From IMG/VR virus record IMGVR_UViG_3300007734_000723, positions 1-52,359 of that record: a stretch of 52,359 bases of DNA. One strand, 5' to 3'. Below the pieces are notes generated by a model. The model was given only the letters and a program-made list of their open reading frames with translations, did not search any database and was not told the DNA's origin. Shown one piece after another: positions 512 to 50,247 of the stretch. A program made the position numbers and the translations under genes. How positions within the stretch are numbered: position 1 is the stretch's first letter; each line of letters begins with the position of its first letter. This DNA is from a virus.

Positions 512-3500
512 ATGAGCGAACTCGGCAGCATACAAGTAGGCATAGAACTCAGACTGCAAGAACTGGCTAACCAGATGGCGCAGGTAGTTTCCATGTTTGA
601 CGCGGCGTTTAAGAAGGTTGATACCGAAACCAAACAGACGGCACGGGAATACGAACGTCAGTGGGCAAAAGCCAACAAAGAGGTAGAGGATTCGGTAAAG
701 AAAAGCGCGGCTGAGTTCGCCAAAGCAGAAGCGTCTAAGGCGGCGGTTGCTAAGAAGACTTCTGCTGAAGTGGAGAAAGAAGCAACAAAGCGTATTGCGA
801 TAGAGGATACCGCCAACAAAGCACACGTTGAGTCCGTGCTGAAAGCGGAGTCGCAAAAGAAGGCGATACGCACCAAAGCGGAATCCGATTACGATGGTAC
901 GATGGCTCGGCATACTGCGGCGTTTAAGGCGGCTATGTTGGAAGAGGTGGAAGCGTCTAAGGCGGCGGCTATGTCGGAAGAGCGAGACCGCGCAACGGCG
1001 GCAAAGGCACGTATGTCTTCTCTACCGGGTGCGGCTGGTACGGTGTCACGTGCAGGGTTTGCGGTAGGTTTGCCTATAGCGGCTGAATTTATCATGGCTA
1101 CTAAGACAGCGGCGGACTTCGACCAAGCGATGCGAAACGTGAACTCTATCGCTCATCTCACAGAACAGCAGCTCGCATCTCTCCGAAACGAAACCTTGAA
1201 ACTCGCACAGGATAAGAGCATCCGGCAGACCCCGAAAGATTTGGCGGAGGGGCTGTATCAAGTGTATTCGGCAGGTAAATCTGGCAAAGAGGGGCTTGAG
1301 ATACTAGAGTGGGGCGCGAAGGGCGCAAGCGCGGGCATGACCGACACGGCAACCTCTACGAAGGTTTTGCTGGCGGTGCTGAACTCTGGAATATCTGGGG
1401 TGAACAACGCCCGTGAAGCGATGAATGTTCTCTTTCAAGAGGTGAACTTAGGTGTAAACTCCTTCCCTGAACTCGCGAACTCGATAGGCAATGTCCTACC
1501 CACTGCGAAGGTCGTAGGCGTTTCTATTCAGGAGGTCGCGGCGGCGATGGCGCAGATGACACGTAACGGTATCAACGCCGACGAGTCTGTTACCTCTCTG
1601 AACCAGATGCTGACGCATATTTGGAAGCCTGGCAAGGAAGCCGAGAAACTGATGACCTCTCTAGGTATCAGTTTTGGGGCGGCGGCACTTGAGGGCAAGG
1701 GGTTGGGCGGCTGGCTCAAAGAGGTAATGGAGAAAACGCACGGGAACCGTGACCAGTTGGCGCACCTGATACCTGAAATACGCGGCGCAAAGGGCGAGTT
1801 CTCTCTGCTCTCGGATGGATTGAAGGGTTACAACGAACTTTTAGGCAGCATGAAAAAGGCGAGTGAGGGCGTAGGGCAGACAACGGAAACACTCACTCGA
1901 CAGAATAAAGGTTCAGTCTCGCAGTTTGAACTCCTAAAAAAAGAGGTAGACCTTACCAAAATCGCGATAGGCGACGGGCTTCTCCCGACAGTGAATCAAG
2001 CGATGAAAGGGTTTCGTGAATGGCTCGAGGAGTGGAATAAGCAACCGAAAGCGGCAAGAGACGCGCAGACAGGAATAGCAACGCTTGCGGCAGAGGTGGG
2101 GTTAAGCATTGGTGTTATATCTAGCCTAGTAGGCTGGCTTGCGAAACTCAAGACGGGACTAGCTACGCTGGGAGGATCAGGCGCGGCAGGATTGGCGGCG
2201 ACGGGAGTCGGAACGGCTGTCGCAGGCATCGGGCTTATGGTGAGCGAGCGAGCGAGTATGATAGACGCGATAGAGTCAGGCAATAAGGCGGCGTGGGAAG
2301 GTGCGCCCAACGCAAAAAGGAACCGTCCAGCACTTGAAGCCGAGCGTAAACGCATCGAGCAGGGGTTGAAAGAGTATGCCGGAATACCCGCCAAACTAGC
2401 AGAGCTGCAGAAGCGCAAATCGGAGGTCGGGGCAGCTCTGTCGGCTCTTGACATTGAAGGCGCGGCGGCAGACGATGCACGAAAAGGACACCTCACGGAT
2501 ACGAAACCTAAACCCCCTTGGGGCGCAGGTGGCTACGAAAGAAACGCAGGGAAAGCGGGGGCAAAGGCGGCGAAAGACGCGGCGCGGGAACGTGCGAGAG
2601 AGATAAAAGACGCTATCAAGGATACGGAAGACGAAACGCGACTGACTCGTGACGATATAGCGGCACGGAAGGAGCTACTGTTGGCGGGGCGTGAGTTGGC
2701 AGTATTTAAGGCACAACAGGGCTTCGACGCAACGATGGCGAACGCTAAGACCCCTGCACGGCGTGGGGCGGCAGCTCTCCTGTATCAAGTCCAGGTTTGG
2801 AAAGCGCAAGAGTCAGAAGCACTTGAGGCTATGCGTAAGAGTGTCGCGATTTACAAAGAGCAGACAAAAGTCCCTGAAGGCGTGAAAGACGACTCAAAGG
2901 AAAAGGGTTGGGCGGCACTCTCTGGCGGCATGGCGAACGCCTACGCGGTTCAGCAGTACGGGGCATCTGTAGCGGAAGCGATTGCGAAAGAGGTAGAGGA
3001 GCAGAAACGCGCCCAAGATGAGATTATGGAGTATCGGCGGCGCATGGGTGAGATGACGAACGCGCAGTATATCAAGTTTTTGGAGCAGAGAGTGCTGGCA
3101 GAGCGGACGTTTGGGTTTGGCGGCAAAGAGACCAGCGAGCAGAACCCTGCTTTCAGGGATAAGAACCTCGAACTGCGCCAACACTACACGGACGCGATGG
3201 AGAGCATCTTTGGAAGCAAGGGCAGAAAAGGCGGCAAAGAGGGGGCAAAAGAGATTGCAGAGGGGATTTCGCAGGGTGATAAGTATATGAAACGCGCTAT
3301 GGAAGACCTGAGCGGCGGGGCGTTGGGTTCGTTGCAGAAGGCACTTCACAAAGGCATGAAGGGCGGATTTGGGGATATTCTTGCACACACGCTCACCGAC
3401 CTGCTCTCTAACGTGCTTGAGAACGCTATTACCTCCGCTTTTAAGAAGAAAAAGAAGAAGGGCGGTGGGGCAGGAGACGTATTCGGCGGCGGCGGGTTGT

Positions 3501-3811
3501 TGGGTGACTTCCTATCGCCAATCTCTAGCCTGTTCGGCGGCGGGTTCGATAATGCCTCTAACGACAGGATGGCGCAAGGGTGGGGCTTCGACTTCGCGAA
3601 GCATTTTAGCAGGGGCACTGCTCAGTTTGACAACCAGATGAGGGCGGTAGTACCCGCAGGGGGTGGCGTCGGTGTCGGCTCGCGAAGTGTGAGCATCAAC
3701 CTGCACGGCGACAACCATTTCCATACTGCGATAGATGTTCAGGAGTTCGGGCGCTCGTTGGCGTGGCAGGTGCAGAGCGAACTCAACCGAACCGTAGGAG
3801 GGGGTTACTAA
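512..3811 (+). CDS. Tail tape measure protein, first copy (1099 aa)
   Basis: This protein sets tail length and is threaded into the tail tube. Residues 1-180 are Ala/Lys/Glu-rich and look like a long coiled coil. From about residue 200 comes the conserved tape-measure core (TAADFDQAMRNVNSIAHL). Hydrophobic Ala/Gly-rich stretches follow around 540-575, then a Lys-rich patch with six consecutive lysines and a Gly-rich C-terminus. The ATG at 512 follows the frameshift product. From about residue 205 the protein is almost the same as the copy at 41022-44093, while the first 200 residues are a different, longer allele. By the common rule of about 0.15 nm per residue the tail would be near 165 nm (inference). 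Confidence 0.93.
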   Translation: MSELGSIQVGIELRLQELANQMAQVVSMFDAAFKKVDTETKQTAREYERQWAKANKEVEDSVKKSAAEFAKAEASKAAVAKKTSAEVEKEATKRIAIEDTANKAHVESVLKAESQKKAIRTKAESDYDGTMARHTAAFKAAMLEEVEASKAAAMSEERDRATAAKARMSSLPGAAGTVSRAGFAVGLPIAAEFIMATKTAADFDQAMRNVNSIAHLTEQQLASLRNETLKLAQDKSIRQTPKDLAEGLYQVYSAGKSGKEGLEILEWGAKGASAGMTDTATSTKVLLAVLNSGISGVNNAREAMNVLFQEVNLGVNSFPELANSIGNVLPTAKVVGVSIQEVAAAMAQMTRNGINADESVTSLNQMLTHIWKPGKEAEKLMTSLGISFGAAALEGKGLGGWLKEVMEKTHGNRDQLAHLIPEIRGAKGEFSLLSDGLKGYNELLGSMKKASEGVGQTTETLTRQNKGSVSQFELLKKEVDLTKIAIGDGLLPTVNQAMKGFREWLEEWNKQPKAARDAQTGIATLAAEVGLSIGVISSLVGWLAKLKTGLATLGGSGAAGLAATGVGTAVAGIGLMVSERASMIDAIESGNKAAWEGAPNAKRNRPALEAERKRIEQGLKEYAGIPAKLAELQKRKSEVGAALSALDIEGAAADDARKGHLTDTKPKPPWGAGGYERNAGKAGAKAAKDAARERAREIKDAIKDTEDETRLTRDDIAARKELLLAGRELAVFKAQQGFDATMANAKTPARRGAAALLYQVQVWKAQESEALEAMRKSVAIYKEQTKVPEGVKDDSKEKGWAALSGGMANAYAVQQYGASVAEAIAKEVEEQKRAQDEIMEYRRRMGEMTNAQYIKFLEQRVLAERTFGFGGKETSEQNPAFRDKNLELRQHYTDAMESIFGSKGRKGGKEGAKEIAEGISQGDKYMKRAMEDLSGGALGSLQKALHKGMKGGFGDILAHTLTDLLSNVLENAITSAFKKKKKKGGGAGDVFGGGGLLGDFLSPISSLFGGGFDNASNDRMAQGWGFDFAKHFSRGTAQFDNQMRAVVPAGGGVGVGSRSVSINLHGDNHFHTAIDVQEFGRSLAWQVQSELNRTVGGGY

Positions 3812-4569
3812 TGGCTTACGCACTCAAGTTCGGCTCGTACACATTCCCAACCACCTTCGCGCCCGTGAGCGACCCTGTTGACGTGAGTGTGCCGCTCTCG
3901 AAGATACCCCGCTCTGATGGTGACGTAGCCTCTACAGGTTATCGTAAGGGCAAGGTAGTGCAGATAGACGGCGGGTTGACGAACGGGGTAGGGAGCTACT
4001 CAGAGACAGGGGTAAGGACGCTTATAGACGCGTTTCGGGCTGGCATTGCGGGGAAGCAGAACCTCTACTTTTTCGACGATAGGTACTATCGAAATGCTCA
4101 AATGACCCATGCCGAGTTTGCCAACGAGGTAGGGACATTCCTCAAGATACAGAAAGTGCGGCTTACGTTCGTTGCGGGCGACTCGTATCAGTACGCGGTC
4201 ACGCCTACCGTCACGGCGCGAAGCATTAGCGCGAGTGGGCAGACGCTCTCTGTGACTGCAGGAGGGACGGCAGACGCGATCCCTGTGATTAGCTTGACGG
4301 TGGGGGGAAGCGGGGCGAAGACGCTGGCGGCGACGATAACCAACTCCACGACAGGGAAGGCGTTCACGCTGGCGGGGGCTTGTACAGGCGGGGACGTGAT
4401 TATCGTGGACTGCCTGAACAAAACTGTGACGATAAGCGGGGTGGACAAAACGGCACTGTTTGACGGTCTCTTCTGGAGCCTCGCGAACGGAGCCAACACC
4501 GTGACGGTTGCTTACACCACGGCGACGATAACCAATCTGAGTGTTTCGGCACAGGATAGGTGGTACTGA
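3811..4569 (+). CDS. Distal tail protein (Dit-like), copy 1
   Basis: A 252-residue protein directly after the tape measure. The ATG overlaps the tape-measure stop (TAATG). The N-terminal part (MAYALKFGSYTFPTTFAPVS) resembles siphovirus distal-tail proteins that form the hub joining tube and tip. Residues after about 150 are Thr/Ala/Gly-rich beta-structure, like an added Ig-type or carbohydrate-binding domain. The second copy at 44093-44851 appears identical. The Dit role rests mainly on gene order, tape measure then Dit then tail-tip protein. Confidence 0.75.
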   Translation: MAYALKFGSYTFPTTFAPVSDPVDVSVPLSKIPRSDGDVASTGYRKGKVVQIDGGLTNGVGSYSETGVRTLIDAFRAGIAGKQNLYFFDDRYYRNAQMTHAEFANEVGTFLKIQKVRLTFVAGDSYQYAVTPTVTARSISASGQTLSVTAGGTADAIPVISLTVGGSGAKTLAATITNSTTGKAFTLAGACTGGDVIIVDCLNKTVTISGVDKTALFDGLFWSLANGANTVTVAYTTATITNLSVSAQDRWY

Positions 4570-6887
4570 TGGATTACGACGTAAGGATGTACACCAGCGC
4601 GGGGGTTCGGAAGGCGTTTAATCCTGACTGGATAACCTCTGTTGACTTCGAGTTGGCAGAGCAGGGAGGCTTTCAGAACGGCAGTATCACAGTGCAGTGC
4701 GCTTGGGATGACCTCTCGCTCGATGGCACGGAGTACGTTGACATACGGTGCTTTGACGCTACGACAGTCACGTACAGGGGCTACGTTATGCGCCCAGAGC
4801 AGACGCTGGCTGACCCTGAGACGTGGACGCTCTCGCTGTTTGGGATGATGGAGAGGGCGAACGGCTACCTTGTGCGGAAGTGCTACTGCTATGCGGATTA
4901 TACCGACGTTGGCACGATTTTTCAAGCGATAGTGACCGACTGGGTTGCGCCCAACATTGCGGGGCTGGTGGTGGACGTGACGGGCATCTCTGCACTCAAT
5001 ATTAAGTTGCTTGAGTTTTGTGCGACAGGCAAGACGGCTTCGCAGGCGTTTAATCAGCTGGTAGAGTCCGCACCGCTTACTATGATTTGGGGCTTTGACG
5101 TGACTAGCGGTGGTGTGAACCAGATATATCTACGCCCTCGCTCTGCTACGGTGCAGGATACCTATATTGTGGGTAAGGACGTGACGGCACTGACCTACCC
5201 TCGCGACGTGACTCAGGTGGTGAACAAGGGGTACTTTACAGGGGGGACGGCAGACCTGCCCAACCTCGCGCCAAACGCCTCTTTTGAGAACTGCGTGAGC
5301 GTGACCAGTGCGGACGCGAATCTCCTCTTGAACGGTAGCTTCGAGACGCAAACCCCTTCGAGCAGTCGGCAGAACGCGGCGTACTGGAACCGGGACAACT
5401 CCGCGGTGCGGCGGCAGTTTCCAGACGATAACCCGGGGGCGAACCTCTCTCGAACAGGCAACTGCTATATTGAGATGACGAACGCGACCGCGATATTCTA
5501 CCAGACGGTACAGGTGGGGTACGCACAGCCTATAAACGTCTCGATATGGGCGCGACAGAACACCAACGGCGACACGGAGAATTTTCGGTTCAGGGTGCAA
5601 GAACTGGACTCGGTGGGCACAGTGCTGGCGACTCAGGTCTCTGGGAACCTCACTCCTGCGACTTCGACGTATGAGCAGTTCAGCTACACCTTCACGTTGA
5701 CACAGCCTACCTGCACACAGGCAGTATTCGTGTTTGAGATGATGAGTGCAGGCGGCACAGCGCACGGGATTATCTACGATGACGCGGTAGTGACGCTCTC
5801 CACGCCGCAGGCGGCTGACTGGACGATCGGCACGAACAGCGACAAGACATTCGCGACTCTCGACTGGGCATCCACGGGGTGGGCGAAAGACGGCTTGCAG
5901 AGTGTAGAGGTGATACCTAGTGCGGCAGGTGCGGGGTATGTAGAGCTGGTGACGCGAGCGGAATCGAATGTGAGTGTTGCGCCGGGCAAGACGCACTACT
6001 TCTCGTTGTGGGCGTATGGGGTCGCGGGCACGATTGTACTAGGTTGGCGTGAGTATGCGGACGGGGTGCTGACCTCAACGCAGGGCATGAGCGTGGCAGA
6101 GGTTGTTGTAGGGGTGACAGGCAGCCGCCACACCTTCAGCTCCACGACGGGAACCACTACCAACACGATACAGCCGTTCATTCGGATTTATGACAGCAGT
6201 AGCAACCCTGTGTATGTGGATGCGGTGATGATAACGGTAGGGGCGGCTCCCCCTCTGGGCGACTTCTACAAGGGCAGTAACTACGAGGCAGTACGTTCGG
6301 TGACGGACTACACAGTAGGGCAGATAGGGACGGCACAGTCGGCATCTATAGCGAGCTACGGGCTGAGGGAGAAGGCAGAGTCGGTAGACCTCATTACCAA
6401 CAGCACATTACTGGATACGTTCGTGGTTCCCTATCTGGCAGCGTTCGCGGTTCCTGCGGTGCAGGGGAAACTAGAGATAAAGGGCGCGGTGAAGAATGTG
6501 GGGCTGACCGGAACCCTGCGCGTGGTGAATTTGCCTTCCGCCCCGCCTGCACTGTTTCCGTCGCGTGTTCGCTATCGGATAGGGGATTCGTTCGATATTT
6601 CAGTAGACCTGAATAACCAACGTCCCGACATGGCGCAGCTCTTGCGGAAGGTCGCGAATCAGGCAGTAAAGAACGCGGTGGCTTCGGGGCAGGTCAGCGC
6701 AGGGGGCACAGGGGGCGGTGGCGGTGGAGGTTCGTACCCTTCCAGTGCGGGGGTGACGAGTTTTCAGTCGGACTCGAATACGGCGTTGACGGGGGCGGTA
6801 GTGCTTGTGAGCGGCATTGGTACGGCATTAGCAGAGTCTGGTCAGAACATCACAGTCAATAATCTATGGAGTAGAAAGTTTTTATAA
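4569..6887 (+). CDS. Tail-tip / baseplate protein with carbohydrate-binding modules, copy 1
   Basis: A 772-residue protein starting at ATG 4569 in a TGATG overlap with the Dit stop. The first 230 residues resemble the N-terminal hub domain of Tal/Gp37-type tail proteins. Around 245-400 is a segment of CBM_4_9 type (LLLNGSFETQTPSS with a following beta-sandwich), and a second jelly-roll-like segment covers about 410-560. The C-terminus has a Gly-rich linker (GGTGGGGGGGSYP) followed by a short trimerisation-like tail (GVTSFQSDSN). It probably contacts host surface polysaccharide. No peptidase or lysozyme motif is visible. It is the same as the product of 44851-47169. Confidence 0.72.
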   Translation: MDYDVRMYTSAGVRKAFNPDWITSVDFELAEQGGFQNGSITVQCAWDDLSLDGTEYVDIRCFDATTVTYRGYVMRPEQTLADPETWTLSLFGMMERANGYLVRKCYCYADYTDVGTIFQAIVTDWVAPNIAGLVVDVTGISALNIKLLEFCATGKTASQAFNQLVESAPLTMIWGFDVTSGGVNQIYLRPRSATVQDTYIVGKDVTALTYPRDVTQVVNKGYFTGGTADLPNLAPNASFENCVSVTSADANLLLNGSFETQTPSSSRQNAAYWNRDNSAVRRQFPDDNPGANLSRTGNCYIEMTNATAIFYQTVQVGYAQPINVSIWARQNTNGDTENFRFRVQELDSVGTVLATQVSGNLTPATSTYEQFSYTFTLTQPTCTQAVFVFEMMSAGGTAHGIIYDDAVVTLSTPQAADWTIGTNSDKTFATLDWASTGWAKDGLQSVEVIPSAAGAGYVELVTRAESNVSVAPGKTHYFSLWAYGVAGTIVLGWREYADGVLTSTQGMSVAEVVVGVTGSRHTFSSTTGTTTNTIQPFIRIYDSSSNPVYVDAVMITVGAAPPLGDFYKGSNYEAVRSVTDYTVGQIGTAQSASIASYGLREKAESVDLITNSTLLDTFVVPYLAAFAVPAVQGKLEIKGAVKNVGLTGTLRVVNLPSAPPALFPSRVRYRIGDSFDISVDLNNQRPDMAQLLRKVANQAVKNAVASGQVSAGGTGGGGGGGSYPSSAGVTSFQSDSNTALTGAVVLVSGIGTALAESGQNITVNNLWSRKFL

Positions 6888-7229
6888 ATGGCTACAGAGA
6901 CACCTGGAGAACTAGGAACATCCTACCCTGCCGCGTCAACATGGACGGAGGTATACACAGTCCCCGACGTGGCGGGTAACTACGCCGTCACATCGCTTTT
7001 GACTGTCTGCAATGAGGGGTGTAGCACTGATTATTTCAGCATAGCGACGGTGACGCATAGTGCTGGGAATCCAACGACGCAACAGTATAAAGCGTATCTT
7101 ATACCTGTAGACCCGAACTGCACATATCTGTTAAAAATAGCGTTGACGCTAGGGCAGAACAAGGCAATAAGCGTCTACTCGCAAAATGGGACACTCGCGT
7201 TTTCAGCACAGGGGGTGCAGAATGTCTGA
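6888..7229 (+). CDS. Small virion-associated beta-rich protein, copy 1 (unknown)
   Basis: A 113-residue protein that begins one base after the tail-tip stop. It is rich in Thr, Ser, Val and Tyr, with alternating hydrophobic residues suggesting a beta-sandwich. It lies between tail-tip and fibre-like genes and shares an 8-base overlap with the next gene. I do not recognise a family; position suggests a small tail appendage or trimeric spike component. It has an identical copy at 47170-47511. Confidence 0.6.
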   Translation: MATETPGELGTSYPAASTWTEVYTVPDVAGNYAVTSLLTVCNEGCSTDYFSIATVTHSAGNPTTQQYKAYLIPVDPNCTYLLKIALTLGQNKAISVYSQNGTLAFSAQGVQNV

Positions 7230-8175
7230 TTTTCTGATTGGTAACTCTCTCAACGCTCTTGCTCCTCCTGCTACGGAGGCATCGGACTGGTACAATCGAA
7301 ACACTATAGCCCGCGTCATGTCCTCTATGAAACTAGGCTTCCCATATGGGCGCAGCGTCTATACCGTCAACAGTACTAACAACGCTTTCAACTATCAGGG
7401 TAGTACCACTGCAACGGCACAAAATACGGATTTCGCTATGAGATGGCAACTAGACTGCGGGTATCCCGGTACGCCTCAGTGGTTTGGCTTCCCATTCGAG
7501 GGCGATTCTATAGGGCTGGTATACGATATTGATACAGGCTCGAAAACCAGTACCACTGCCGCGTATTATCAACCATTCGGGGCGCGTATAGACGGACGAT
7601 CTTATCGTATTACTCCCTCATTTGCCTCGATTGAAGGTAACGGAAACATTACGCCGGCATCATATATCTATCGCTCTGGTAATAACCGTACACAAGCACG
7701 GTGGGTAATTCACGGGCTAGGGAGCGGTATGCACTATGCGCGGTTCACTGTGAGCGGCGACCCTGCGTGGGTAGGCGATGAGGCGACAGGTGCTGGCTCT
7801 AATCAACGTGTGGGCATTTACGGGGTACTCCTTCCCTCCGACTCTTGGGATAGTATGGCAAAAGAGAGTTCGACTTTCACTGTACGGTATAGTAGTGTCT
7901 CAACGTCAATGACAACACTCTCCTCTTTCTCCAATGGAACCACACCGCTGCGTATATCGCGACTGCGGGCATACAACAAACACGCGACAACTGCGACATC
8001 TATAGTGGCACAACTGGACGGTAGCAACACTGAGATGGGGGTTGTGGCACTCGCGGCAGGTGCGTCTATAGATTTACTTGCCGCAGGTGCGCCGCGTTCG
8101 TTCACGTCAATTAGGGCGCAGGCGGGCGCGGCTTCCTCTATCGACCTATATGCAGATTACATAGCGGGGATATAG
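7222..8175 (+). CDS. Putative tail fibre / receptor-binding protein, copy 1
   Basis: A 317-residue protein starting at ATG 7222 inside the end of the previous gene. It is rich in Ser, Thr, Gly and aromatic residues, without charged coiled coils, and has beta-type periodicity. Its position between the tail-tip protein and an SGNH hydrolase fits a receptor-binding or head-fibre-like protein. No specific domain was recognised. The second copy (47504-48457) is the same. Confidence 0.6.
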   Translation: MSDFLIGNSLNALAPPATEASDWYNRNTIARVMSSMKLGFPYGRSVYTVNSTNNAFNYQGSTTATAQNTDFAMRWQLDCGYPGTPQWFGFPFEGDSIGLVYDIDTGSKTSTTAAYYQPFGARIDGRSYRITPSFASIEGNGNITPASYIYRSGNNRTQARWVIHGLGSGMHYARFTVSGDPAWVGDEATGAGSNQRVGIYGVLLPSDSWDSMAKESSTFTVRYSSVSTSMTTLSSFSNGTTPLRISRLRAYNKHATTATSIVAQLDGSNTEMGVVALAAGASIDLLAAGAPRSFTSIRAQAGAASSIDLYADYIAGI

Positions 8176-8179
8176 CCAA

Positions 8180-9322
8180 ATGTCAGTAAGTTTAGCGATA
8201 CGTGGTATTGATGATATTGCAGTGACGGGGGATTCGTCAGGTGAGGCGAAATTCATACCGGAAGGGTATGGATTTGTGAACCTCATAGCAGAGTACCTCC
8301 GCGCCCCTGTAGCGCAAGGGGGGTACAACCTCTCTGTAGACGCAGTAAACTACTGCCTCAGCGGTGACTGTAGCGAAGCATCTAATAGCGGCGCTTCGCT
8401 AGCCTTCCCTCAAGCGACTGGCTCTACGCCGGGTACTCTCAATAGGTGTTTACGCATGACGGGAGAGATATTCGGCAATCAGGTGGCGCGAGTCCCTAAG
8501 ATTTGCGGGTTTTCGATAGGCACTAACGACACGGCGAACTACCTCCCCAACTCTGCTTCTCTCGTCTCTACCAAAACTACTGAGAATATAAAGACAAGCA
8601 TAAGGGCAATAAGAAACGGGTGTTACAGCGGATATTACACGGGATTATGGGTTAATGGCATCGTTGACAACCCTAGCCTGTTACCTGCCAATATGCCTGT
8701 AGGCGCGAAGTTTCTAGTTAGGAATGATAACAATGCCACGTATGGCGACGGCATATCGCATAACATCTTAGGCGCGTCTATATCCACAAGCGCGGGCGAC
8801 GGTAACAGGTGCGTCCTTGCCAGTGGCGCACAGACTAACGAGGTTTGGGTTTGCGTAAATGGGTATAGCGGTATCTTAGGATGGTGCAGGACGTATAGCG
8901 AGGAGAGGCTGGTCGCCGCAAGCGTAGCGTTCACTCCAAAAGTGAAATACTTTTTCGTGGTGGGCATCTATATCTACCAATCGGAGTCAGGTGGACCCAA
9001 CGCTGGACTACAGGCGGTTAGAGCGAGGCAACAAGCGGCGGTGACTGACCTCATAGCACTGGGTGCGCCGTATACGACTGGTGGAAATAATATCATATAC
9101 GTTGACACCTATACACCTGCCGCATTGATGGTAACGGACGGAGTGCCTATAACTGCTTTTTCCTACTTTCCAGGTGCTAGTGGTGGGGCAGACAATCATC
9201 AGGGGATTCTTGGGAACGCAGTAATCGCAAAAAACGTGGTTGCGGGCATGGAGTCTGCTGGCTGGATTACTCGTACAGCAACGAGTAGCCGATCACTGAT
9301 GTTTCAACAACTTACAGGATAG
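8180..9322 (+). CDS. SGNH/GDSL-type hydrolase in the tail operon, copy 1
   Basis: A 380-residue protein. A GDSS motif at residues 17-20 supplies the nucleophile serine, GTND at 114-117 fits block III (Asn), and a C-terminal ADNHQG (Asp338, His340) fits the Asp/His dyad. SGNH hydrolases remove acyl groups from carbohydrates, so in a tail operon it probably deacylates host surface glycans during adsorption (inference). It starts at ATG 8180, four bases after the previous stop. The second copy is at 48462-49604. Confidence 0.8.
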   Translation: MSVSLAIRGIDDIAVTGDSSGEAKFIPEGYGFVNLIAEYLRAPVAQGGYNLSVDAVNYCLSGDCSEASNSGASLAFPQATGSTPGTLNRCLRMTGEIFGNQVARVPKICGFSIGTNDTANYLPNSASLVSTKTTENIKTSIRAIRNGCYSGYYTGLWVNGIVDNPSLLPANMPVGAKFLVRNDNNATYGDGISHNILGASISTSAGDGNRCVLASGAQTNEVWVCVNGYSGILGWCRTYSEERLVAASVAFTPKVKYFFVVGIYIYQSESGGPNAGLQAVRARQQAAVTDLIALGAPYTTGGNNIIYVDTYTPAALMVTDGVPITAFSYFPGASGGADNHQGILGNAVIAKNVVAGMESAGWITRTATSSRSLMFQQLTG

Positions 9323-9330
9323 GAGATATA

Positions 9331-9648: not shown

Positions 9649-9713
9649 GACGCTGGCGAACGTTGGCGACTGGATTCTACTATTCGGGAGTCCCTACTAG
9701 ATAAGGAGAAGAT

Positions 9714-9827
9714 ATGAACGAGAATCAAGAGGTAGAGCGTGCGGCTCTGGGTCATGCCTACCGCGTAGACATATCGGCAAAACGTGTCTATTTTGGCGCG
9801 TTTTATGGACATATTGGAGGTGAAAGC
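9714..9827 (+). other. Hybrid 5' fragment of the gene found whole at 49996
   Basis: A strong ribosome site (AAGGAG at 9702-9707) precedes ATG 9714. The first 13 codons (MNENQEVERAALG) match the gene at 49996-50247 except for one residue, and then homology stops at 9752. The frame stays open and runs into the DUF6527-like gene that follows, so a fused product is possible. More likely this is the leftover start of an exchanged gene at a recombination junction. Confidence 0.6.
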
Positions 9828-10190: not shown

Positions 10191-10195
10191 TGTCA

Positions 10196-10237: not shown

Positions 10238-10239
10238 AC

Positions 10240-10270: not shown

Positions 10271-10280
10271 CTTACGAGGG

Positions 10281-41025: not shown

Positions 41026-44000
41026 ACCCCTCACATGGCGACTTAGGCTCTATACAGGTAGGTATTGATATTGGGATTGCGAACCTGCAACGGCAGATGG
41101 TGCAGGTCGTGGGCGAATTCAACAGGTTTGGTCAGAAGATAGACGACTCTGTTGCGAAGACGCAAGCCTCCATCTTGCGCTCGTACACGACCTCTATAGA
41201 GCGTCAGAACAAACTGATTGAGCAGCAGTCTACGAAGCGTATTCGGGAGGAGCAGAGGGTACTTGCCGCGATAGAGCGCGAGCGAGCAAAGCACTCTCGC
41301 GCCGCGCTACGTGTGGCAGGTATGGCAGGAGATGCGGGGTTTGCGGTCGGGGTTCCCCTTGCGGCAGGGCTTGCGGCGGCGGCTAAGACGGCGGCGGAGT
41401 TTGATCAGTCTATGCGGAACGTCGACTCTATCGCTCATCTCACCGAACAGCAGCTCGCTTCTCTCCGTAACGAAACCTTGAAACTCGCGCAGGATAAGAG
41501 CATCCGTCAGACACCCAAAGACCTTGCGGAGGGGCTGTATCAGGTGTATTCGGCGGGTAAATCTGGCAAAGAGGGGCTTGAGATACTAGAGTGGGGCGCT
41601 AAAGGGGCCTCGGCGGGTATGACAGATACCGCGACCTCTACGAAGGTTTTGCTTGCGGTTCTCAATTCAGGCATTAGCGGGGTGAACAACGCCCGCGAAG
41701 CGATGGATGTGCTTTTTCAAGAGGTGAATCTGGGCGTTAACACCTTCCACGAACTCGCGAACTCTATAGGCAACGTGCTACCTACTGCGAAAGTGGTAGG
41801 CGTTTCGATTCAGGAGGTGGCGGCGGCGATGGCGGCGATGACGCGAAACGGAATCAACGCCGACGAGTCTGTTACCTCGCTGAACCAGATGCTGACGCAC
41901 ATCTGGAAGCCGGGCAAGGAAGCGGAAAAACTGATGACCTCGCTTGGTATCAGTTTTGGGGCGGCGGCACTTGAGGGTAAGGGGTTGGGCGGATGGCTCA
42001 AAGAGGTAATGGAGAAAACGCACGGGAACCGTGACCAGTTGGCGCACCTGATACCTGAAATACGCGGCGCAAAGGGCGAGTTCTCTCTGCTCTCGGATGG
42101 ATTGAAGGGTTACAACGAACTTTTAGGCAGCATGAAAAAGGCGAGTGAGGGCGCAGGTCAAACGACGGAAGCACTCACTCGACAGAATAAAGGTTCAGTC
42201 TCGCAGTTTGAACTCCTAAAAAAAGAGGTAGACCTTACCAAAATCGCGATAGGCGACGGGCTTCTCCCGACAGTGAATCAAGCGATGAAAGGGTTTCGTG
42301 AATGGCTCGAGGAGTGGAATAAGCAACCGAAAGCGGCAAGAGACGCGCAGACAGGAATAGCAACGCTTGCGGCAGAGGTGGGGTTAAGCATTGGTGTTAT
42401 ATCTAGCCTAGTAGGCTGGCTTGCGAAACTCAAGACGGGACTAGCTACGCTGGGAGTATCAGGCGCGGCAGGATTAGCGGCGACGGGAGTCGGAACGGCT
42501 GTCGCAGGAATCGGGCTTATGGTGAGCGAGCGAGCGAGTATGATAGACGCGATAGAGTCAGGCAATAAGGCGGCGTGGGAAGGTGCGCCCAACGCAAAAA
42601 GGAACCGTCCAGCACTTGAAGCCGAGCGTAAACGCATCGAGCAGGGGTTGAAAGAGTATGCCGGAATACCCGCCAAACTAGCAGAGCTGCAGAAGCGCAA
42701 ATCGGAGGTCGGGGCAGCTCTGTCGGCTCTTGACATTGAAGGCGCGGCGGCAGACGATGCACGAAAAGGACACCTCACGGATACGAAACCTAAACCCCCT
42801 TGGGGCGCAGGTGGCTACGAAAGAAACGCAGGGAAAGCGGGGGCAAAGGCGGCGAAAGACGCGGCGCGGGAACGTGCGAGAGAGATAAAAGACGCTATCA
42901 AGGATACGGAAGACGAAACGCGACTGACTCGTGACGATATAGCGGCACGGAAGGAGCTACTGTTGGCGGGGCGTGAGTTGGCAGTATTTAAGGCACAACA
43001 GGGCTTCGACGCAACGATGGCGAACGCTAAGACCCCTGCACGGCGTGGGGCGGCAGCTCTCCTGTATCAAGTCCAGGTTTGGAAAGCGCAAGAGTCAGAA
43101 GCACTTGAGGCTATGCGTAAGAGTGTCGCGATTTACAAAGAGCAGACAAAAGTCCCTGAAGGCGTGAAAGACGACTCAAAGGAAAAGGGTTGGGCGGCAC
43201 TCTCTGGCGGCATGGCGAACGCCTACGCGGTTCAGCAGTACGGGGCATCTGTAGCGGAAGCGATTGCGAAAGAGGTAGAGGAGCAGAAACGCGCCCAAGA
43301 TGAGATTATGGAGTATCGGCGGCGCATGGGTGAGATGACGAACGCGCAGTATATCAAGTTTTTGGAGCAGAGAGTGCTGGCAGAGCGGACGTTTGGGTTT
43401 GGCGGCAAAGAGACCAGCGAGCAGAACCCTGCTTTCAGGGATAAGAACCTCGAACTGCGCCAACACTACACGGACGCGATGGAGAGCATCTTTGGAAGCA
43501 AGGGCAGAAAAGGCGGCAAAGAGGGGGCAAAAGAGATTGCAGAGGGGATTTCGCAGGGTGATAAGTATATGAAACGCGCTATGGAAGACCTGAGCGGCGG
43601 GGCGTTGGGTTCGTTGCAGAAGGCACTTCACAAAGGCATGAAGGGCGGATTTGGGGATATTCTTGCACACACGCTCACCGACCTGCTCTCTAACGTGCTT
43701 GAGAACGCTATTACCTCCGCTTTTAAGAAGAAAAAGAAGAAGGGCGGTGGGGCAGGAGACGTATTCGGCGGCGGCGGGTTGTTGGGTGACTTCCTATCGC
43801 CAATCTCTAGCCTGTTCGGCGGCGGGTTCGATAATGCCTCTAACGACAGGATGGCGCAAGGGTGGGGCTTCGACTTCGCGAAGCATTTTAGCAGGGGCAC
43901 TGCTCAGTTTGACAACCAGATGAGGGCGGTAGTACCCGCAGGGGGTGGCGTCGGTGTCGGCTCGCGAAGTGTGAGCATCAACCTGCACGGCGACAACCAT

Positions 44001-44093
44001 TTCCATACTGCGATAGATGTTCAGGAGTTCGGGCGCTCGTTGGCGTGGCAGGTGCAGAGCGAACTCAACCGAACCGTAGGAGGGGGTTACTAA
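41022..44093 (+). CDS. Tail tape measure protein, second copy (1023 aa)
   Basis: The N-terminal 130 residues (LGSIQVGIDIGIANLQRQMV then coiled coil) are a shorter allele than in the first copy; only the opening LGSIQVGI is shared. From AKTAAEFDQSMRNVDSIAHL on the two proteins are almost the same. The difference of 76 residues would change tail length by about 11 nm (rule-of-thumb inference). Confidence 0.93.
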   Translation: MNPSHGDLGSIQVGIDIGIANLQRQMVQVVGEFNRFGQKIDDSVAKTQASILRSYTTSIERQNKLIEQQSTKRIREEQRVLAAIERERAKHSRAALRVAGMAGDAGFAVGVPLAAGLAAAAKTAAEFDQSMRNVDSIAHLTEQQLASLRNETLKLAQDKSIRQTPKDLAEGLYQVYSAGKSGKEGLEILEWGAKGASAGMTDTATSTKVLLAVLNSGISGVNNAREAMDVLFQEVNLGVNTFHELANSIGNVLPTAKVVGVSIQEVAAAMAAMTRNGINADESVTSLNQMLTHIWKPGKEAEKLMTSLGISFGAAALEGKGLGGWLKEVMEKTHGNRDQLAHLIPEIRGAKGEFSLLSDGLKGYNELLGSMKKASEGAGQTTEALTRQNKGSVSQFELLKKEVDLTKIAIGDGLLPTVNQAMKGFREWLEEWNKQPKAARDAQTGIATLAAEVGLSIGVISSLVGWLAKLKTGLATLGVSGAAGLAATGVGTAVAGIGLMVSERASMIDAIESGNKAAWEGAPNAKRNRPALEAERKRIEQGLKEYAGIPAKLAELQKRKSEVGAALSALDIEGAAADDARKGHLTDTKPKPPWGAGGYERNAGKAGAKAAKDAARERAREIKDAIKDTEDETRLTRDDIAARKELLLAGRELAVFKAQQGFDATMANAKTPARRGAAALLYQVQVWKAQESEALEAMRKSVAIYKEQTKVPEGVKDDSKEKGWAALSGGMANAYAVQQYGASVAEAIAKEVEEQKRAQDEIMEYRRRMGEMTNAQYIKFLEQRVLAERTFGFGGKETSEQNPAFRDKNLELRQHYTDAMESIFGSKGRKGGKEGAKEIAEGISQGDKYMKRAMEDLSGGALGSLQKALHKGMKGGFGDILAHTLTDLLSNVLENAITSAFKKKKKKGGGAGDVFGGGGLLGDFLSPISSLFGGGFDNASNDRMAQGWGFDFAKHFSRGTAQFDNQMRAVVPAGGGVGVGSRSVSINLHGDNHFHTAIDVQEFGRSLAWQVQSELNRTVGGGY

Positions 44094-44851
44094 TGGCTTA
44101 CGCACTCAAGTTCGGCTCGTACACATTCCCAACCACCTTCGCGCCCGTGAGCGACCCTGTTGACGTGAGTGTGCCGCTCTCGAAGATACCCCGCTCTGAT
44201 GGTGACGTAGCCTCTACAGGTTATCGTAAGGGCAAGGTAGTGCAGATAGACGGCGGGTTGACGAACGGGGTAGGGAGCTACTCAGAGACAGGGGTAAGGA
44301 CGCTTATAGACGCGTTTCGGGCTGGCATTGCGGGGAAGCAGAACCTCTACTTTTTCGACGATAGGTACTATCGAAATGCTCAAATGACCCATGCCGAGTT
44401 TGCCAACGAGGTAGGGACATTCCTCAAGATACAGAAAGTGCGGCTTACGTTCGTTGCGGGCGACTCGTATCAGTACGCGGTCACGCCTACCGTCACGGCG
44501 CGAAGCATTAGCGCGAGTGGGCAGACGCTCTCTGTGACTGCAGGAGGGACGGCAGACGCGATCCCTGTGATTAGCTTGACGGTGGGGGGAAGCGGGGCGA
44601 AGACGCTGGCGGCGACGATAACCAACTCCACGACAGGGAAGGCGTTCACGCTGGCGGGGGCTTGTACAGGCGGGGACGTGATTATCGTGGACTGCCTGAA
44701 CAAAACTGTGACGATAAGCGGGGTGGACAAAACGGCACTGTTTGACGGTCTCTTCTGGAGCCTCGCGAACGGAGCCAACACCGTGACGGTTGCTTACACC
44801 ACGGCGACGATAACCAATCTGAGTGTTTCGGCACAGGATAGGTGGTACTGA
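44093..44851 (+). CDS. Distal tail protein (Dit-like), copy 2
   Basis: Same 252-residue protein as at 3811-4569, with the same TAATG overlap with the tape measure. I found no residue difference. The complete preservation between two otherwise diverged operons points to recent exchange rather than strong selection alone, because synonymous sites match as well. Confidence 0.75.
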   Translation: MAYALKFGSYTFPTTFAPVSDPVDVSVPLSKIPRSDGDVASTGYRKGKVVQIDGGLTNGVGSYSETGVRTLIDAFRAGIAGKQNLYFFDDRYYRNAQMTHAEFANEVGTFLKIQKVRLTFVAGDSYQYAVTPTVTARSISASGQTLSVTAGGTADAIPVISLTVGGSGAKTLAATITNSTTGKAFTLAGACTGGDVIIVDCLNKTVTISGVDKTALFDGLFWSLANGANTVTVAYTTATITNLSVSAQDRWY

Positions 44852-47169
44852 TGGATTACGACGTAAGGATGTACACCAGCGCGGGGGTTCGGAAGGCGTT
44901 TAATCCTGACTGGATAACCTCTGTTGACTTCGAGTTGGCAGAGCAGGGAGGCTTTCAGAACGGCAGTATCACAGTGCAGTGCGCTTGGGATGACCTCTCG
45001 CTCGATGGCACGGAGTACGTTGACATACGGTGCTTTGACGCTACGACAGTCACGTACAGGGGCTACGTTATGCGCCCAGAGCAGACGCTGGCTGACCCTG
45101 AGACGTGGACGCTCTCGCTGTTTGGGATGATGGAGAGGGCGAACGGCTACCTTGTGCGGAAGTGCTACTGCTATGCGGATTATACCGACGTTGGCACGAT
45201 TTTTCAAGCGATAGTGACCGACTGGGTTGCGCCCAACATTGCGGGGCTGGTGGTGGACGTGACGGGCATCTCTGCACTCAATATTAAGTTGCTTGAGTTT
45301 TGTGCGACAGGCAAGACGGCTTCGCAGGCGTTTAATCAGCTGGTAGAGTCCGCACCGCTTACTATGATTTGGGGCTTTGACGTGACTAGCGGTGGTGTGA
45401 ACCAGATATATCTACGCCCTCGCTCTGCTACGGTGCAGGATACCTATATTGTGGGTAAGGACGTGACGGCACTGACCTACCCTCGCGACGTGACTCAGGT
45501 GGTGAACAAGGGGTACTTTACAGGGGGGACGGCAGACCTGCCCAACCTCGCGCCAAACGCCTCTTTTGAGAACTGCGTGAGCGTGACCAGTGCGGACGCG
45601 AATCTCCTCTTGAACGGTAGCTTCGAGACGCAAACCCCTTCGAGCAGTCGGCAGAACGCGGCGTACTGGAACCGGGACAACTCCGCGGTGCGGCGGCAGT
45701 TTCCAGACGATAACCCGGGGGCGAACCTCTCTCGAACAGGCAACTGCTATATTGAGATGACGAACGCGACCGCGATATTCTACCAGACGGTACAGGTGGG
45801 GTACGCACAGCCTATAAACGTCTCGATATGGGCGCGACAGAACACCAACGGCGACACGGAGAATTTTCGGTTCAGGGTGCAAGAACTGGACTCGGTGGGC
45901 ACAGTGCTGGCGACTCAGGTCTCTGGGAACCTCACTCCTGCGACTTCGACGTATGAGCAGTTCAGCTACACCTTCACGTTGACACAGCCTACCTGCACAC
46001 AGGCAGTATTCGTGTTTGAGATGATGAGTGCAGGCGGCACAGCGCACGGGATTATCTACGATGACGCGGTAGTGACGCTCTCCACGCCGCAGGCGGCTGA
46101 CTGGACGATCGGCACGAACAGCGACAAGACATTCGCGACTCTCGACTGGGCATCCACGGGGTGGGCGAAAGACGGCTTGCAGAGTGTAGAGGTGATACCT
46201 AGTGCGGCAGGTGCGGGGTATGTAGAGCTGGTGACGCGAGCGGAATCGAATGTGAGTGTTGCGCCGGGCAAGACGCACTACTTCTCGTTGTGGGCGTATG
46301 GGGTCGCGGGCACGATTGTACTAGGTTGGCGTGAGTATGCGGACGGGGTGCTGACCTCAACGCAGGGCATGAGCGTGGCAGAGGTTGTTGTAGGGGTGAC
46401 AGGCAGCCGCCACACCTTCAGCTCCACGACGGGAACCACTACCAACACGATACAGCCGTTCATTCGGATTTATGACAGCAGTAGCAACCCTGTGTATGTG
46501 GATGCGGTGATGATAACGGTAGGGGCGGCTCCCCCTCTGGGCGACTTCTACAAGGGCAGTAACTACGAGGCAGTACGTTCGGTGACGGACTACACAGTAG
46601 GGCAGATAGGGACGGCACAGTCGGCATCTATAGCGAGCTACGGGCTGAGGGAGAAGGCAGAGTCGGTAGACCTCATTACCAACAGCACATTACTGGATAC
46701 GTTCGTGGTTCCCTATCTGGCAGCGTTCGCGGTTCCTGCGGTGCAGGGGAAACTAGAGATAAAGGGCGCGGTGAAGAATGTGGGGCTGACCGGAACCCTG
46801 CGCGTGGTGAATTTGCCTTCCGCCCCGCCTGCACTGTTTCCGTCGCGTGTTCGCTATCGGATAGGGGATTCGTTCGATATTTCAGTAGACCTGAATAACC
46901 AACGTCCCGACATGGCGCAGCTCTTGCGGAAGGTCGCGAATCAGGCAGTAAAGAACGCGGTGGCTTCGGGGCAGGTCAGCGCAGGGGGCACAGGGGGCGG
47001 TGGCGGTGGAGGTTCGTACCCTTCCAGTGCGGGGGTGACGAGTTTTCAGTCGGACTCGAATACGGCGTTGACGGGGGCGGTAGTGCTTGTGAGCGGCATT
47101 GGTACGGCATTAGCAGAGTCTGGTCAGAACATCACAGTCAATAATCTATGGAGTAGAAAGTTTTTATAA
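44851..47169 (+). CDS. Tail-tip / baseplate protein with carbohydrate-binding modules, copy 2
   Basis: Same 772-residue protein as at 4569-6887: hub-type N-terminus, two jelly-roll-like carbohydrate-binding segments, Gly-rich linker and short C-terminal trimer-like tail. No difference was seen, so both phages should recognise the same receptor. Confidence 0.72.
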   Translation: MDYDVRMYTSAGVRKAFNPDWITSVDFELAEQGGFQNGSITVQCAWDDLSLDGTEYVDIRCFDATTVTYRGYVMRPEQTLADPETWTLSLFGMMERANGYLVRKCYCYADYTDVGTIFQAIVTDWVAPNIAGLVVDVTGISALNIKLLEFCATGKTASQAFNQLVESAPLTMIWGFDVTSGGVNQIYLRPRSATVQDTYIVGKDVTALTYPRDVTQVVNKGYFTGGTADLPNLAPNASFENCVSVTSADANLLLNGSFETQTPSSSRQNAAYWNRDNSAVRRQFPDDNPGANLSRTGNCYIEMTNATAIFYQTVQVGYAQPINVSIWARQNTNGDTENFRFRVQELDSVGTVLATQVSGNLTPATSTYEQFSYTFTLTQPTCTQAVFVFEMMSAGGTAHGIIYDDAVVTLSTPQAADWTIGTNSDKTFATLDWASTGWAKDGLQSVEVIPSAAGAGYVELVTRAESNVSVAPGKTHYFSLWAYGVAGTIVLGWREYADGVLTSTQGMSVAEVVVGVTGSRHTFSSTTGTTTNTIQPFIRIYDSSSNPVYVDAVMITVGAAPPLGDFYKGSNYEAVRSVTDYTVGQIGTAQSASIASYGLREKAESVDLITNSTLLDTFVVPYLAAFAVPAVQGKLEIKGAVKNVGLTGTLRVVNLPSAPPALFPSRVRYRIGDSFDISVDLNNQRPDMAQLLRKVANQAVKNAVASGQVSAGGTGGGGGGGSYPSSAGVTSFQSDSNTALTGAVVLVSGIGTALAESGQNITVNNLWSRKFL

Positions 47170-47511
47170 ATGGCTACAGAGACACCTGGAGAACTAGGAA
47201 CATCCTACCCTGCCGCGTCAACATGGACGGAGGTATACACAGTCCCCGACGTGGCGGGTAACTACGCCGTCACATCGCTTTTGACTGTCTGCAATGAGGG
47301 GTGTAGCACTGATTATTTCAGCATAGCGACGGTGACGCATAGTGCTGGGAATCCAACGACGCAACAGTATAAAGCGTATCTTATACCTGTAGACCCGAAC
47401 TGCACATATCTGTTAAAAATAGCGTTGACGCTAGGGCAGAACAAGGCAATAAGCGTCTACTCGCAAAATGGGACACTCGCGTTTTCAGCACAGGGGGTGC
47501 AGAATGTCTGA
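47170..47511 (+). CDS. Small virion-associated beta-rich protein, copy 2
   Basis: Identical in reading to the 113-residue product at 6888-7229, again starting one base after the tail-tip stop. Unknown function; tail appendage by position. Confidence 0.6.
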   Translation: MATETPGELGTSYPAASTWTEVYTVPDVAGNYAVTSLLTVCNEGCSTDYFSIATVTHSAGNPTTQQYKAYLIPVDPNCTYLLKIALTLGQNKAISVYSQNGTLAFSAQGVQNV

Positions 47512-48457
47512 TTTTCTGATTGGTAACTCTCTCAACGCTCTTGCTCCTCCTGCTACGGAGGCATCGGACTGGTACAATCGAAACACTATAGCCCGCGTCA
47601 TGTCCTCTATGAAACTAGGCTTCCCATATGGGCGCAGCGTCTATACCGTCAACAGTACTAACAACGCTTTCAACTATCAGGGTAGTACCACTGCAACGGC
47701 ACAAAATACGGATTTCGCTATGAGATGGCAACTAGACTGCGGGTATCCCGGTACGCCTCAGTGGTTTGGCTTCCCATTCGAGGGCGATTCTATAGGGCTG
47801 GTATACGATATTGATACAGGCTCGAAAACCAGTACCACTGCCGCGTATTATCAACCATTCGGGGCGCGTATAGACGGACGATCTTATCGTATTACTCCCT
47901 CATTTGCCTCGATTGAAGGTAACGGAAACATTACGCCGGCATCATATATCTATCGCTCTGGTAATAACCGTACACAAGCACGGTGGGTAATTCACGGGCT
48001 AGGGAGCGGTATGCACTATGCGCGGTTCACTGTGAGCGGCGACCCTGCGTGGGTAGGCGATGAGGCGACAGGTGCTGGCTCTAATCAACGTGTGGGCATT
48101 TACGGGGTACTCCTTCCCTCCGACTCTTGGGATAGTATGGCAAAAGAGAGTTCGACTTTCACTGTACGGTATAGTAGTGTCTCAACGTCAATGACAACAC
48201 TCTCCTCTTTCTCCAATGGAACCACACCGCTGCGTATATCGCGACTGCGGGCATACAACAAACACGCGACAACTGCGACATCTATAGTGGCACAACTGGA
48301 CGGTAGCAACACTGAGATGGGGGTTGTGGCACTCGCGGCAGGTGCGTCTATAGATTTACTTGCCGCAGGTGCGCCGCGTTCGTTCACGTCAATTAGGGCG
48401 CAGGCGGGCGCGGCTTCCTCTATCGACCTATATGCAGATTACATAGCGGGGATATAG
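47504..48457 (+). CDS. Putative tail fibre / receptor-binding protein, copy 2
   Basis: Same 317-residue protein as at 7222-8175, with the ATG inside the previous gene. Ser/Thr/Gly-rich beta-type composition; receptor-binding role by position. Confidence 0.6.
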   Translation: MSDFLIGNSLNALAPPATEASDWYNRNTIARVMSSMKLGFPYGRSVYTVNSTNNAFNYQGSTTATAQNTDFAMRWQLDCGYPGTPQWFGFPFEGDSIGLVYDIDTGSKTSTTAAYYQPFGARIDGRSYRITPSFASIEGNGNITPASYIYRSGNNRTQARWVIHGLGSGMHYARFTVSGDPAWVGDEATGAGSNQRVGIYGVLLPSDSWDSMAKESSTFTVRYSSVSTSMTTLSSFSNGTTPLRISRLRAYNKHATTATSIVAQLDGSNTEMGVVALAAGASIDLLAAGAPRSFTSIRAQAGAASSIDLYADYIAGI

Positions 48458-48461
48458 CCAA

Positions 48462-49604
48462 ATGTCAGTAAGTTTAGCGATACGTGGTATTGATGATATT
48501 GCAGTGACGGGGGATTCGTCAGGTGAGGCGAAATTCATACCGGAAGGGTATGGATTTGTGAACCTCATAGCAGAGTACCTCCGCGCCCCTGTAGCGCAAG
48601 GGGGGTACAACCTCTCTGTAGACGCAGTAAACTACTGCCTCAGCGGTGACTGTAGCGAAGCATCTAATAGCGGCGCTTCGCTAGCCTTCCCTCAAGCGAC
48701 TGGCTCTACGCCGGGTACTCTCAATAGGTGTTTACGCATGACGGGAGAGATATTCGGCAATCAGGTGGCGCGAGTCCCTAAGATTTGCGGGTTTTCGATA
48801 GGCACTAACGACACGGCGAACTACCTCCCCAACTCTGCTTCTCTCGTCTCTACCAAAACTACTGAGAATATAAAGACAAGCATAAGGGCAATAAGAAACG
48901 GGTGTTACAGCGGATATTACACGGGATTATGGGTTAATGGCATCGTTGACAACCCTAGCCTGTTACCTGCCAATATGCCTGTAGGCGCGAAGTTTCTAGT
49001 TAGGAATGATAACAATGCCACGTATGGCGACGGCATATCGCATAACATCTTAGGCGCGTCTATATCCACAAGCGCGGGCGACGGTAACAGGTGCGTCCTT
49101 GCCAGTGGCGCACAGACTAACGAGGTTTGGGTTTGCGTAAATGGGTATAGCGGTATCTTAGGATGGTGCAGGACGTATAGCGAGGAGAGGCTGGTCGCCG
49201 CAAGCGTAGCGTTCACTCCAAAAGTGAAATACTTTTTCGTGGTGGGCATCTATATCTACCAATCGGAGTCAGGTGGACCCAACGCTGGACTACAGGCGGT
49301 TAGAGCGAGGCAACAAGCGGCGGTGACTGACCTCATAGCACTGGGTGCGCCGTATACGACTGGTGGAAATAATATCATATACGTTGACACCTATACACCT
49401 GCCGCATTGATGGTAACGGACGGAGTGCCTATAACTGCTTTTTCCTACTTTCCAGGTGCTAGTGGTGGGGCAGACAATCATCAGGGGATTCTTGGGAACG
49501 CAGTAATCGCAAAAAACGTGGTTGCGGGCATGGAGTCTGCTGGCTGGATTACTCGTACAGCAACGAGTAGCCGATCACTGATGTTTCAACAACTTACAGG
49601 ATAG
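48462..49604 (+). CDS. SGNH/GDSL-type hydrolase, copy 2
   Basis: Same 380-residue protein as at 8180-9322, with GDSS (17-20), GTND (114-117) and DNH (338-340) intact, so both copies should be active. Confidence 0.8.
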   Translation: MSVSLAIRGIDDIAVTGDSSGEAKFIPEGYGFVNLIAEYLRAPVAQGGYNLSVDAVNYCLSGDCSEASNSGASLAFPQATGSTPGTLNRCLRMTGEIFGNQVARVPKICGFSIGTNDTANYLPNSASLVSTKTTENIKTSIRAIRNGCYSGYYTGLWVNGIVDNPSLLPANMPVGAKFLVRNDNNATYGDGISHNILGASISTSAGDGNRCVLASGAQTNEVWVCVNGYSGILGWCRTYSEERLVAASVAFTPKVKYFFVVGIYIYQSESGGPNAGLQAVRARQQAAVTDLIALGAPYTTGGNNIIYVDTYTPAALMVTDGVPITAFSYFPGASGGADNHQGILGNAVIAKNVVAGMESAGWITRTATSSRSLMFQQLTG

Positions 49605-49612
49605 GAGATATA

Positions 49613-49930
49613 ATGGCACTTTCTACGGTAGAGGCAACTTTCAAAACATCTGATTTGTTGAGATTGATACAGGCGCGAATAGAGCGGGCTGAAAATACTA
49701 TGACGAAAATTGAGGCTAAGATGGCTCCTTTGCGCGGCACTACGGCGATGCACGAAGAATCGTTCACTCTGCTCAGGGATGCTTACGATAAGGCGCGAGG
49801 GGTGGCAGAACATAAATTTTGGATACCAATACTAGCGAACTGCAAAGATGAAACAGTAACGGTACTACATTCTGAATTGCAGTGGTTACGGATTGACTCT
49901 CTGGACGTACAGACCACGTTGAAGAAGTAA
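49613..49930 (+). CDS. Small coiled-coil protein, copy 2
   Basis: Matches the 105-residue product at 9331-9648 apart from Thr instead of Ser at residue 31. Last complete gene shared by both tail operons. Confidence 0.65.
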   Translation: MALSTVEATFKTSDLLRLIQARIERAENTMTKIEAKMAPLRGTTAMHEESFTLLRDAYDKARGVAEHKFWIPILANCKDETVTVLHSELQWLRIDSLDVQTTLKK

Positions 49931-49995
49931 GACGCTGGCGAACGTTGGCGACTGGATTCTACTATTCGGGAGTCCCTACTAGATAAGGAGAAGAT

Positions 49996-50247
49996 ATGAA
50001 CGAGAATCAAGAGGTAGAGCGTGTGGCTCTGGGTGTAGATTGGAATAACCTGAACTGGAAGGGACTCACGACCCACAGCGCGGTCACAGGGGTACTTGCA
50101 GGGCTGGGCGCGAAGCAGTCGGGAACATCTGACTTGTCGGCAGGGCTTATAGGACTGTTCACGGCACTAGGTACAGCGAAGGCGTACTCGAAGCCGCCGA
50201 CTAAGGTATTGACAAGCAAAGCGAAACGTGATACACTAAAAAAGTAA
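49996..50247 (+). CDS. Small protein with hydrophobic helices (possible holin)
   Basis: An 83-residue protein behind AAGGAG. The middle (THSAVTGVLAGLGAKQSG and LSAGLIGLFTALGTAKAY) contains two weakly hydrophobic Gly/Ala helices and the end is Lys-rich. Size, place at the end of the tail operon and basic tail fit a small holin, but hydrophobicity is low. Only its first 13 codons are present in the first operon (9714-9752). Confidence 0.45.
   Translation: MNENQEVERVALGVDWNNLNWKGLTTHSAVTGVLAGLGAKQSGTSDLSAGLIGLFTALGTAKAYSKPPTKVLTSKAKRDTLKK

Follow-up and report, generated by a model that had tools for sequence, protein, structure and literature searches.

The DNA analysed here in its entire length of 52,359 nt, and referred to as the window, is the viral record IMGVR_UViG_3300007734_000723, in which a block of tail genes is found twice on the plus strand, at positions 1712-9752 and 41994-50034. 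The unit that runs from the end of the first copy to the end of the second (9753-50034) holds one temperate-siphophage gene set, with single copies of each of the following: a large serine integrase (minus strand, 12352-14001; PF00239 and PF07508, phrog_95), a repressor-like HTH protein (minus strand, 16445-16900; PF13560), a replication initiation protein (plus strand, 24966-25958; phrog_2149 at 1.4e-35, without a Pfam match), TerL (plus strand, 29373-30926; phrog_38), portal, scaffold and major capsid proteins (plus strand, 30926-34790; phrog_64, phrog_233 and phrog_1328), and a tape measure protein. The presence of one full gene set between the two copies, as given in an earlier first-pass annotation of this DNA, is thus upheld by the family matches. 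The phage to which the unit is assigned, hereafter phage B, is predicted to be a temperate siphophage with a large serine integrase, since Resolvase and Recombinase domains, an HTH repressor-like protein, a terminase, a capsid and a tape measure are all present; a scan of its proteins, as far as it extended, brought up no recognisable lysis gene. Within the replication initiation gene, at 25308-25391, lie two 39-nt direct copies that are 97% identical at an offset of 45, and which are possibly origin iterons.

Annotated relatives of phage B are distant. Its TerL is 39.7% identical to the best of them, which belongs to a Synechococcus phage, its capsid protein about 33% identical to relatives among which a mycobacteriophage tops the list, and its integrase 24% identical to an annotated relative, while identities for the tape measure are 22-26% among the annotated matches listed. 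The DUF5131 protein reaches 53% with an annotated relative; in genome contigs, the best 80 of at least 586 confirmed relatives of this protein, 34-49% identical, are spread over many phyla and point to no host.

At the 3' end of the integrase gene lies a candidate attP (12298-12355), a dyad with 28-nt arms, complementary at 21 of 28 positions, and a 2-nt core; it has the top score of its shape in the window, the runner-up reaching 18/28. This candidate site looks complete, as expected of unintegrated DNA, and an internal site in a tandem could look alike. The tRNA genes at 50295 and 50446 were also considered as an integration target and set aside, the dyad at the integrase gene looking the better attP candidate.

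The two copies of the tail block are alike at 8031 of 8041 positions upon direct comparison at an offset of 40,282, which bears out the near-identical 8-kb module that had been described, and BLASTN gives 98.98% identity for the longer pair 1101-9752 and 41383-50034; the match is far beyond chance. In coordinates of the first copy, the ten mismatches fall at 1872, 1876, 1879, 1882, 1889, 2175, 2194, 2227, 9421 and 9742, leaving an exact identity of 7193 nt (2228-9420). The first copy encompasses the remainder of a tape measure gene (within 512-3811), a Dit-like tail gene recognised by family match (3763-4569), a tail gene with a CBM_4_9 match (4560-6887) and further genes up to 9648, and reading frames are intact in both copies, on one contig. 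The tail genes suggest that the block probably includes the receptor-binding part.

The borders of the block differ in nature. The right one is abrupt, at 9752, and falls inside an ORF: the first 13 codons of ORFs 9714-10190 and 49996-50247 are common except for one residue, after which the two diverge. In the first copy, the 13 initial codons of what is an 83-aa ORF in the second thus lead into different sequence, and the gene may actually begin at a GTG (9828) that has a ribosome-binding-like sequence; the ORF with this start has a weak DUF6527 match, below the cut-off. The left border is gradual, with the identity of the tape measure gene dropping stepwise upstream of 1712. Between 1029 and 2227, 83 of the 115 mismatches with the partner segment affect the third base of a codon, and of the 97 codons that differ, 75 are synonymous, a pattern that points to natural divergence and not to sequencing error. 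Farther out, 332-502 and 40846-41022 are 45% identical over 56 aa, and the truncated gene 3-359 matches 40352-40870 at 28% over 97 columns (shuffle z 9.4). The N-terminus of the left-flank tape measure is a diverged homologue of that of phage B, and the two genes ahead of it can still be recognised as homologues of phage B genes.

At the level of nucleotides, positions 1-1000 and 9753-12077 show identity at or near chance with their partners at an offset of 40,282. Terminal redundancy of one genome is rejected, since the flanks differ on both sides; the first-pass annotation had excluded a simple terminal redundancy on the same grounds, and it is corrected here in that the left flank, for all its difference, is related to phage B. 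Between the right outer flank and its inner counterpart, the sole BLASTN match is a 36-nt hairpin (10240-10274, plus strand, and 50654-50689; 94%). This match was tried as an att site and rejected, because a GC-rich hairpin with a T-rich tail, placed after tail genes, reads as a terminator; consensus terminator scans do not list the hairpin at 10240-10274, the label of which comes from a reading of the sequence.

Four arms adjoin the two copies. The left outer arm, X (1-2227, plus strand), contains a truncated tail gene (3-359), a small gene (371-505) and the N-terminal part of a tape measure (gene 512-3811). Its inner counterpart, Z (38478-41993, plus strand), belongs to phage B and contains a glycosyltransferase, a tail gene (40352-40870), a small gene and the N-terminal part of the tape measure of phage B (41022-44093). 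To the right of the first copy, arm Y (9753-12351) carries the plus-strand ORF with the GTG at 9828, the hairpin, minus-strand accessory ORFs and an HTH_17 protein (11669-11998). The right outer arm, W (50035-52359), comprises the rest of ORF 49996-50247, two tRNA genes, the hairpin, a minus-strand ORF (50687-51520) and plus-strand ORFs, the last of which is open at the contig end. The gene at 50295 is a tRNA-Met(CAT), as is another at 28445; the second tRNA gene of the arm (50446-50518) receives no assignment from ARAGORN (two-base anticodon), scores 54.6 bits with the Rfam tRNA model, and has by our reading a 6-nt anticodon loop. No protein scanned from arm W has a family match above the cut-off, and the view that this arm is phage DNA rests on the shared hairpin, the ORF that enters from the repeat, and composition. 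Neither Y nor W matched any of the other loci collected. No host gene, for which the first-pass annotation had suggested that the flanks be searched, was recognised in the window; its left end truncates a phage tail gene and its right end an ORF without family assignment, so that the true flanks lie outside the contig.

The identity of the left outer arm is provided by another record. Scanning of IMG/VR with the tape measure of arm X led to IMGVR_UViG_3300011115_000599, an 11,899-nt fragment whose end corresponds to window positions 1-1007 with three mismatches (970, 994 and 997), 1-969 being identical. From there it runs outward into a terminase of its own and then tail-side genes that are 27-67% identical to those of phage B. 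The two TerL proteins are 27% identical over 308 columns, and the 22 rows compared yield no convincing homologue of the phage B portal or capsid on the fragment. Nine of these rows, picked by hand, were counted as homologous pairs (phage B genes at 29373, 35632, 36324, 36650, 37045, 37311, 37842, 38478 and 40352), and the other 13 were left out as weak, chance or partial matches. Since the terminase and head genes reached on this contig are not those of phage B, arm X belongs to another phage, hereafter phage A, whose head module differs. A second genome thus occurs apart from the first, as a contig of its own, and of the tandem double lysogen of two related phages that had been put forward as the simplest reading, the two phages stand while the tandem has gained no direct support. 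A two-domain glycosyltransferase of 609-625 aa (38478-40355 in the window) lies between tail genes in both phages and is 55% identical between them.

The phage A contig comes from a virome of Lake Soyang sampled in May 2016, prepared from 0.2-um filtered, nuclease-treated and CsCl-purified particles and assembled from 2x300 MiSeq reads with SPAdes at k up to 127 (PMC7553992). Given the 969 exact bases within the 1007-nt overlap, the window, too, may stem from Lake Soyang. The phage A contig stops at window position 1007, a little ahead of the point where A and B grow similar, as a contig would at a branch in the graph, although the first 41-mer common to both copies begins only at 1274 and the first common 51-mer at 1712. 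A contig joining X, repeat and W was not found in searches from which near-identical records may be hidden.

The question of which arms go together was addressed through composition, by GC3 of genes hand-picked from the ORF list and by a Markov comparison trained on phage A (without X) and on phage B. GC3 amounts to 186/351 codons in X (0.53 for the genes in 3-1072), 314/596 in W (0.53) and 458/707 in Y (0.65), the genes of Z having 0.66; there is no difference between X and W (p 0.95), and Y differs from both X (p 2e-4) and W (Fisher 1e-5). Phage A is lower in GC3 than phage B in nine of nine homologous pairs counted, and among the 13 rows left out it is lower in 11 and higher in two (32444 and 35306). 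The low GC3 of W is only suggestive of phage A, because the immunity genes of phage B also have a GC3 of 0.52. In the Markov comparison, X and both halves of W score towards A, the first half of Y scores towards B, and its second half scores near zero. When the context length is 2 or 3, the scores of X and W exceed those of all held-out windows of phage B; with length 4 they come just inside the highest one. Composition is thus suggestive of an association of the outer arms X and W with each other, and of the first half of Y with phage B; the placing of W with phage A is based on composition alone.

Composition also varies within the shared block, which scores B-like or near zero from 2228 to 7227 and A-like from 7228 to 9420, where GC3 is about 0.5. 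The stretch 1001-2227 of phage A also scores B-like, which may reflect exchange.

For phage B, a complete map that closes into a circle of 40,282 nt and is made up of Y, the core, Z and the repeat is plausible. When the window (52,359 nt) is compared with this circle together with a linear piece of 12,077 nt that consists of X, the repeat and W, the same k-mers result at all eight values of k tested between 127 and 7193, both included; the equality holds for three cut points, and the sets differ at k=7200 and k=8000. Since the sets are equal up to 7193, reads shorter than about 7.2 kb cannot alone separate a tandem from two phages. In a graph at k=127 the block is not one clean node and consists of four shared segments (from 1712, 1890, 2228 and 9422) with small bubbles between them, each segment having two entries and two exits. 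A graph of this shape makes the window one legal walk, coming from A, going once round B, and leaving again into A.

These observations lead us to favour, with some reserve, the interpretation that the contig is an assembly path through a recently exchanged tail block common to two co-occurring temperate siphophages, and not a real tandem. Two different phages, A and B, would share the block at about 1712-9752; B would be a complete circle of 40,282 nt and A would supply the outer arms X and, as composition suggests, W. The path would enter the block from A, round the circle of B once, pass the block again and exit into A. A single turn of B between two arms of A would explain both the one-genome spacing and the differing outer flanks. 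A and B would then not be physically joined, and the tandem itself is probably not genuine. A path through a mixed population had been named as the main alternative to a double lysogen, and with the k-mers and the phage A contig it fits better than the tandem.

Confidence in this interpretation is kept in check by the behaviour of assemblers. Repeats of 7.2 kb normally bring a short-read assembler to a halt, although SPAdes unrolls simple loops of this kind. According to the rnaSPAdes paper (PMC6736328), exSPAnder removes overlaps aggressively, so as to avoid duplicated sequence. This overlap removal and the graph of four segments count against an assembly path and lower our confidence in it. 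The order of the parts could be real if long reads underlie the window.

Through lysogeny, a real order could have arisen in two ways, both of which appear improbable. In the first, prophage A, ending in Y, would be followed by prophage B in a tandem double lysogen at one attachment site, with the attP-like dyad at 12298-12355 as the junction. The exact spacing of one gene set and the position of the candidate attP next to the integrase speak for such an arrangement, and the internal site of a prophage tandem can be a complete attP. However, a tandem formed at att predicts that X goes with Y and Z with W, whereas composition, an indirect guide, pairs X with W and at least the first half of Y with B; neither a host gene nor another att-like dyad as good as the candidate attP is recognised in the window. 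Recombination of attP with attL or attR by a serine integrase normally calls for a directionality factor. In addition, the contig holds just one complete unit (40,282 nt) and 12,077 nt more, and is too short for two prophages.

The second, to which we likewise give little credence, is a nested arrangement, in which one crossover within the tail block would have inserted circular B into a prophage of A, generating X, repeat, B, repeat and W on one chromosome. It fits the pairing of the arms as well as an assembly path does, and near-identity over 8 kb amply suffices for homologous recombination. It requires a lysogen, however, while the known phage A contig comes from a particle-enriched virome, and no host flank is seen. 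That the contig represents a true nested double prophage or a packaged hybrid, with a complete B inside the tail region of A through homologous recombination in the freshly shared 8-kb block, is doubtful; if true, two phages with different heads would be kept together with one receptor-binding module.

A real recombinant concatemer of A and B, or an oversized packaged molecule from a mixed infection, is very improbable: many tailed phages do replicate as concatemers, but rare recombinants are unlikely to dominate an assembly, and 52 kb exceeds one unit of 40.3 kb. A single larger phage genome with a duplicated tail module, for which the presence of both copies with intact frames on one contig could be cited, is rejected as scarcely credible, because arm X leads upstream, in the phage A contig, into a second, different terminase and head module, which speaks for two whole phages.

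If the contig is read as an assembly path, a plausible complete temperate phage genome of 40,282 nt is gained, and two phages emerge that have strongly different terminase and head genes, yet an almost identical tail block; a contig of this kind would otherwise be miscounted as a 52-kb phage or a double lysogen. The juxtaposition of a near-identical block and strongly diverged genes points to a recent exchange under every reading except duplication. The exchange, presumably by recombination, would be ordinary phage mosaicism, caught very recently; no recombinase for module exchange was identified in this analysis. Searches for close relatives, in which the records most similar to the window may be missing, gave no match in phage records for megablast of 1000-11000, none in phage records or viral contigs for the tail gene 4560-6887, and none in viral contigs for the integrase, the arm W protein 50687-51520 or the tail gene 8180-9322. 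The integrase also had no match in five individual records (0 of 5), a kind of search in which an empty outcome is uninformative. The remaining related loci examined are too distant to bear on the junctions.

Polylysogens with tandem prophages exist, and the window resembles them in the repetition of a phage block at the spacing of one genome; it differs in that no host junction is seen, that only one complete unit is present, and that the composition of the arms pairs wrongly for a tandem at an att site. A parallel to the assembly path proposed here is offered by chimeric metagenome contigs, for which sequence common to related genomes is a stated cause (PMC7299287); as in such contigs, two genomes, a shared block and k-mers that are ambiguous between one and two molecules are found. 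What sets the window apart is that its path would go once round a circular genome and then run into the block a second time. The exchange itself has its counterpart in the mosaic temperate phages of De Paepe et al., whose study deals with the exchange of modules by homologous recombination (PMC3945230). Different terminase and head genes, a shared tail block, and a left border along which identity goes from 28% (aa) to 100% are features in keeping with such mosaics, from which the present pair differs by 7193 nt of exact identity and by an abrupt right border inside an ORF.
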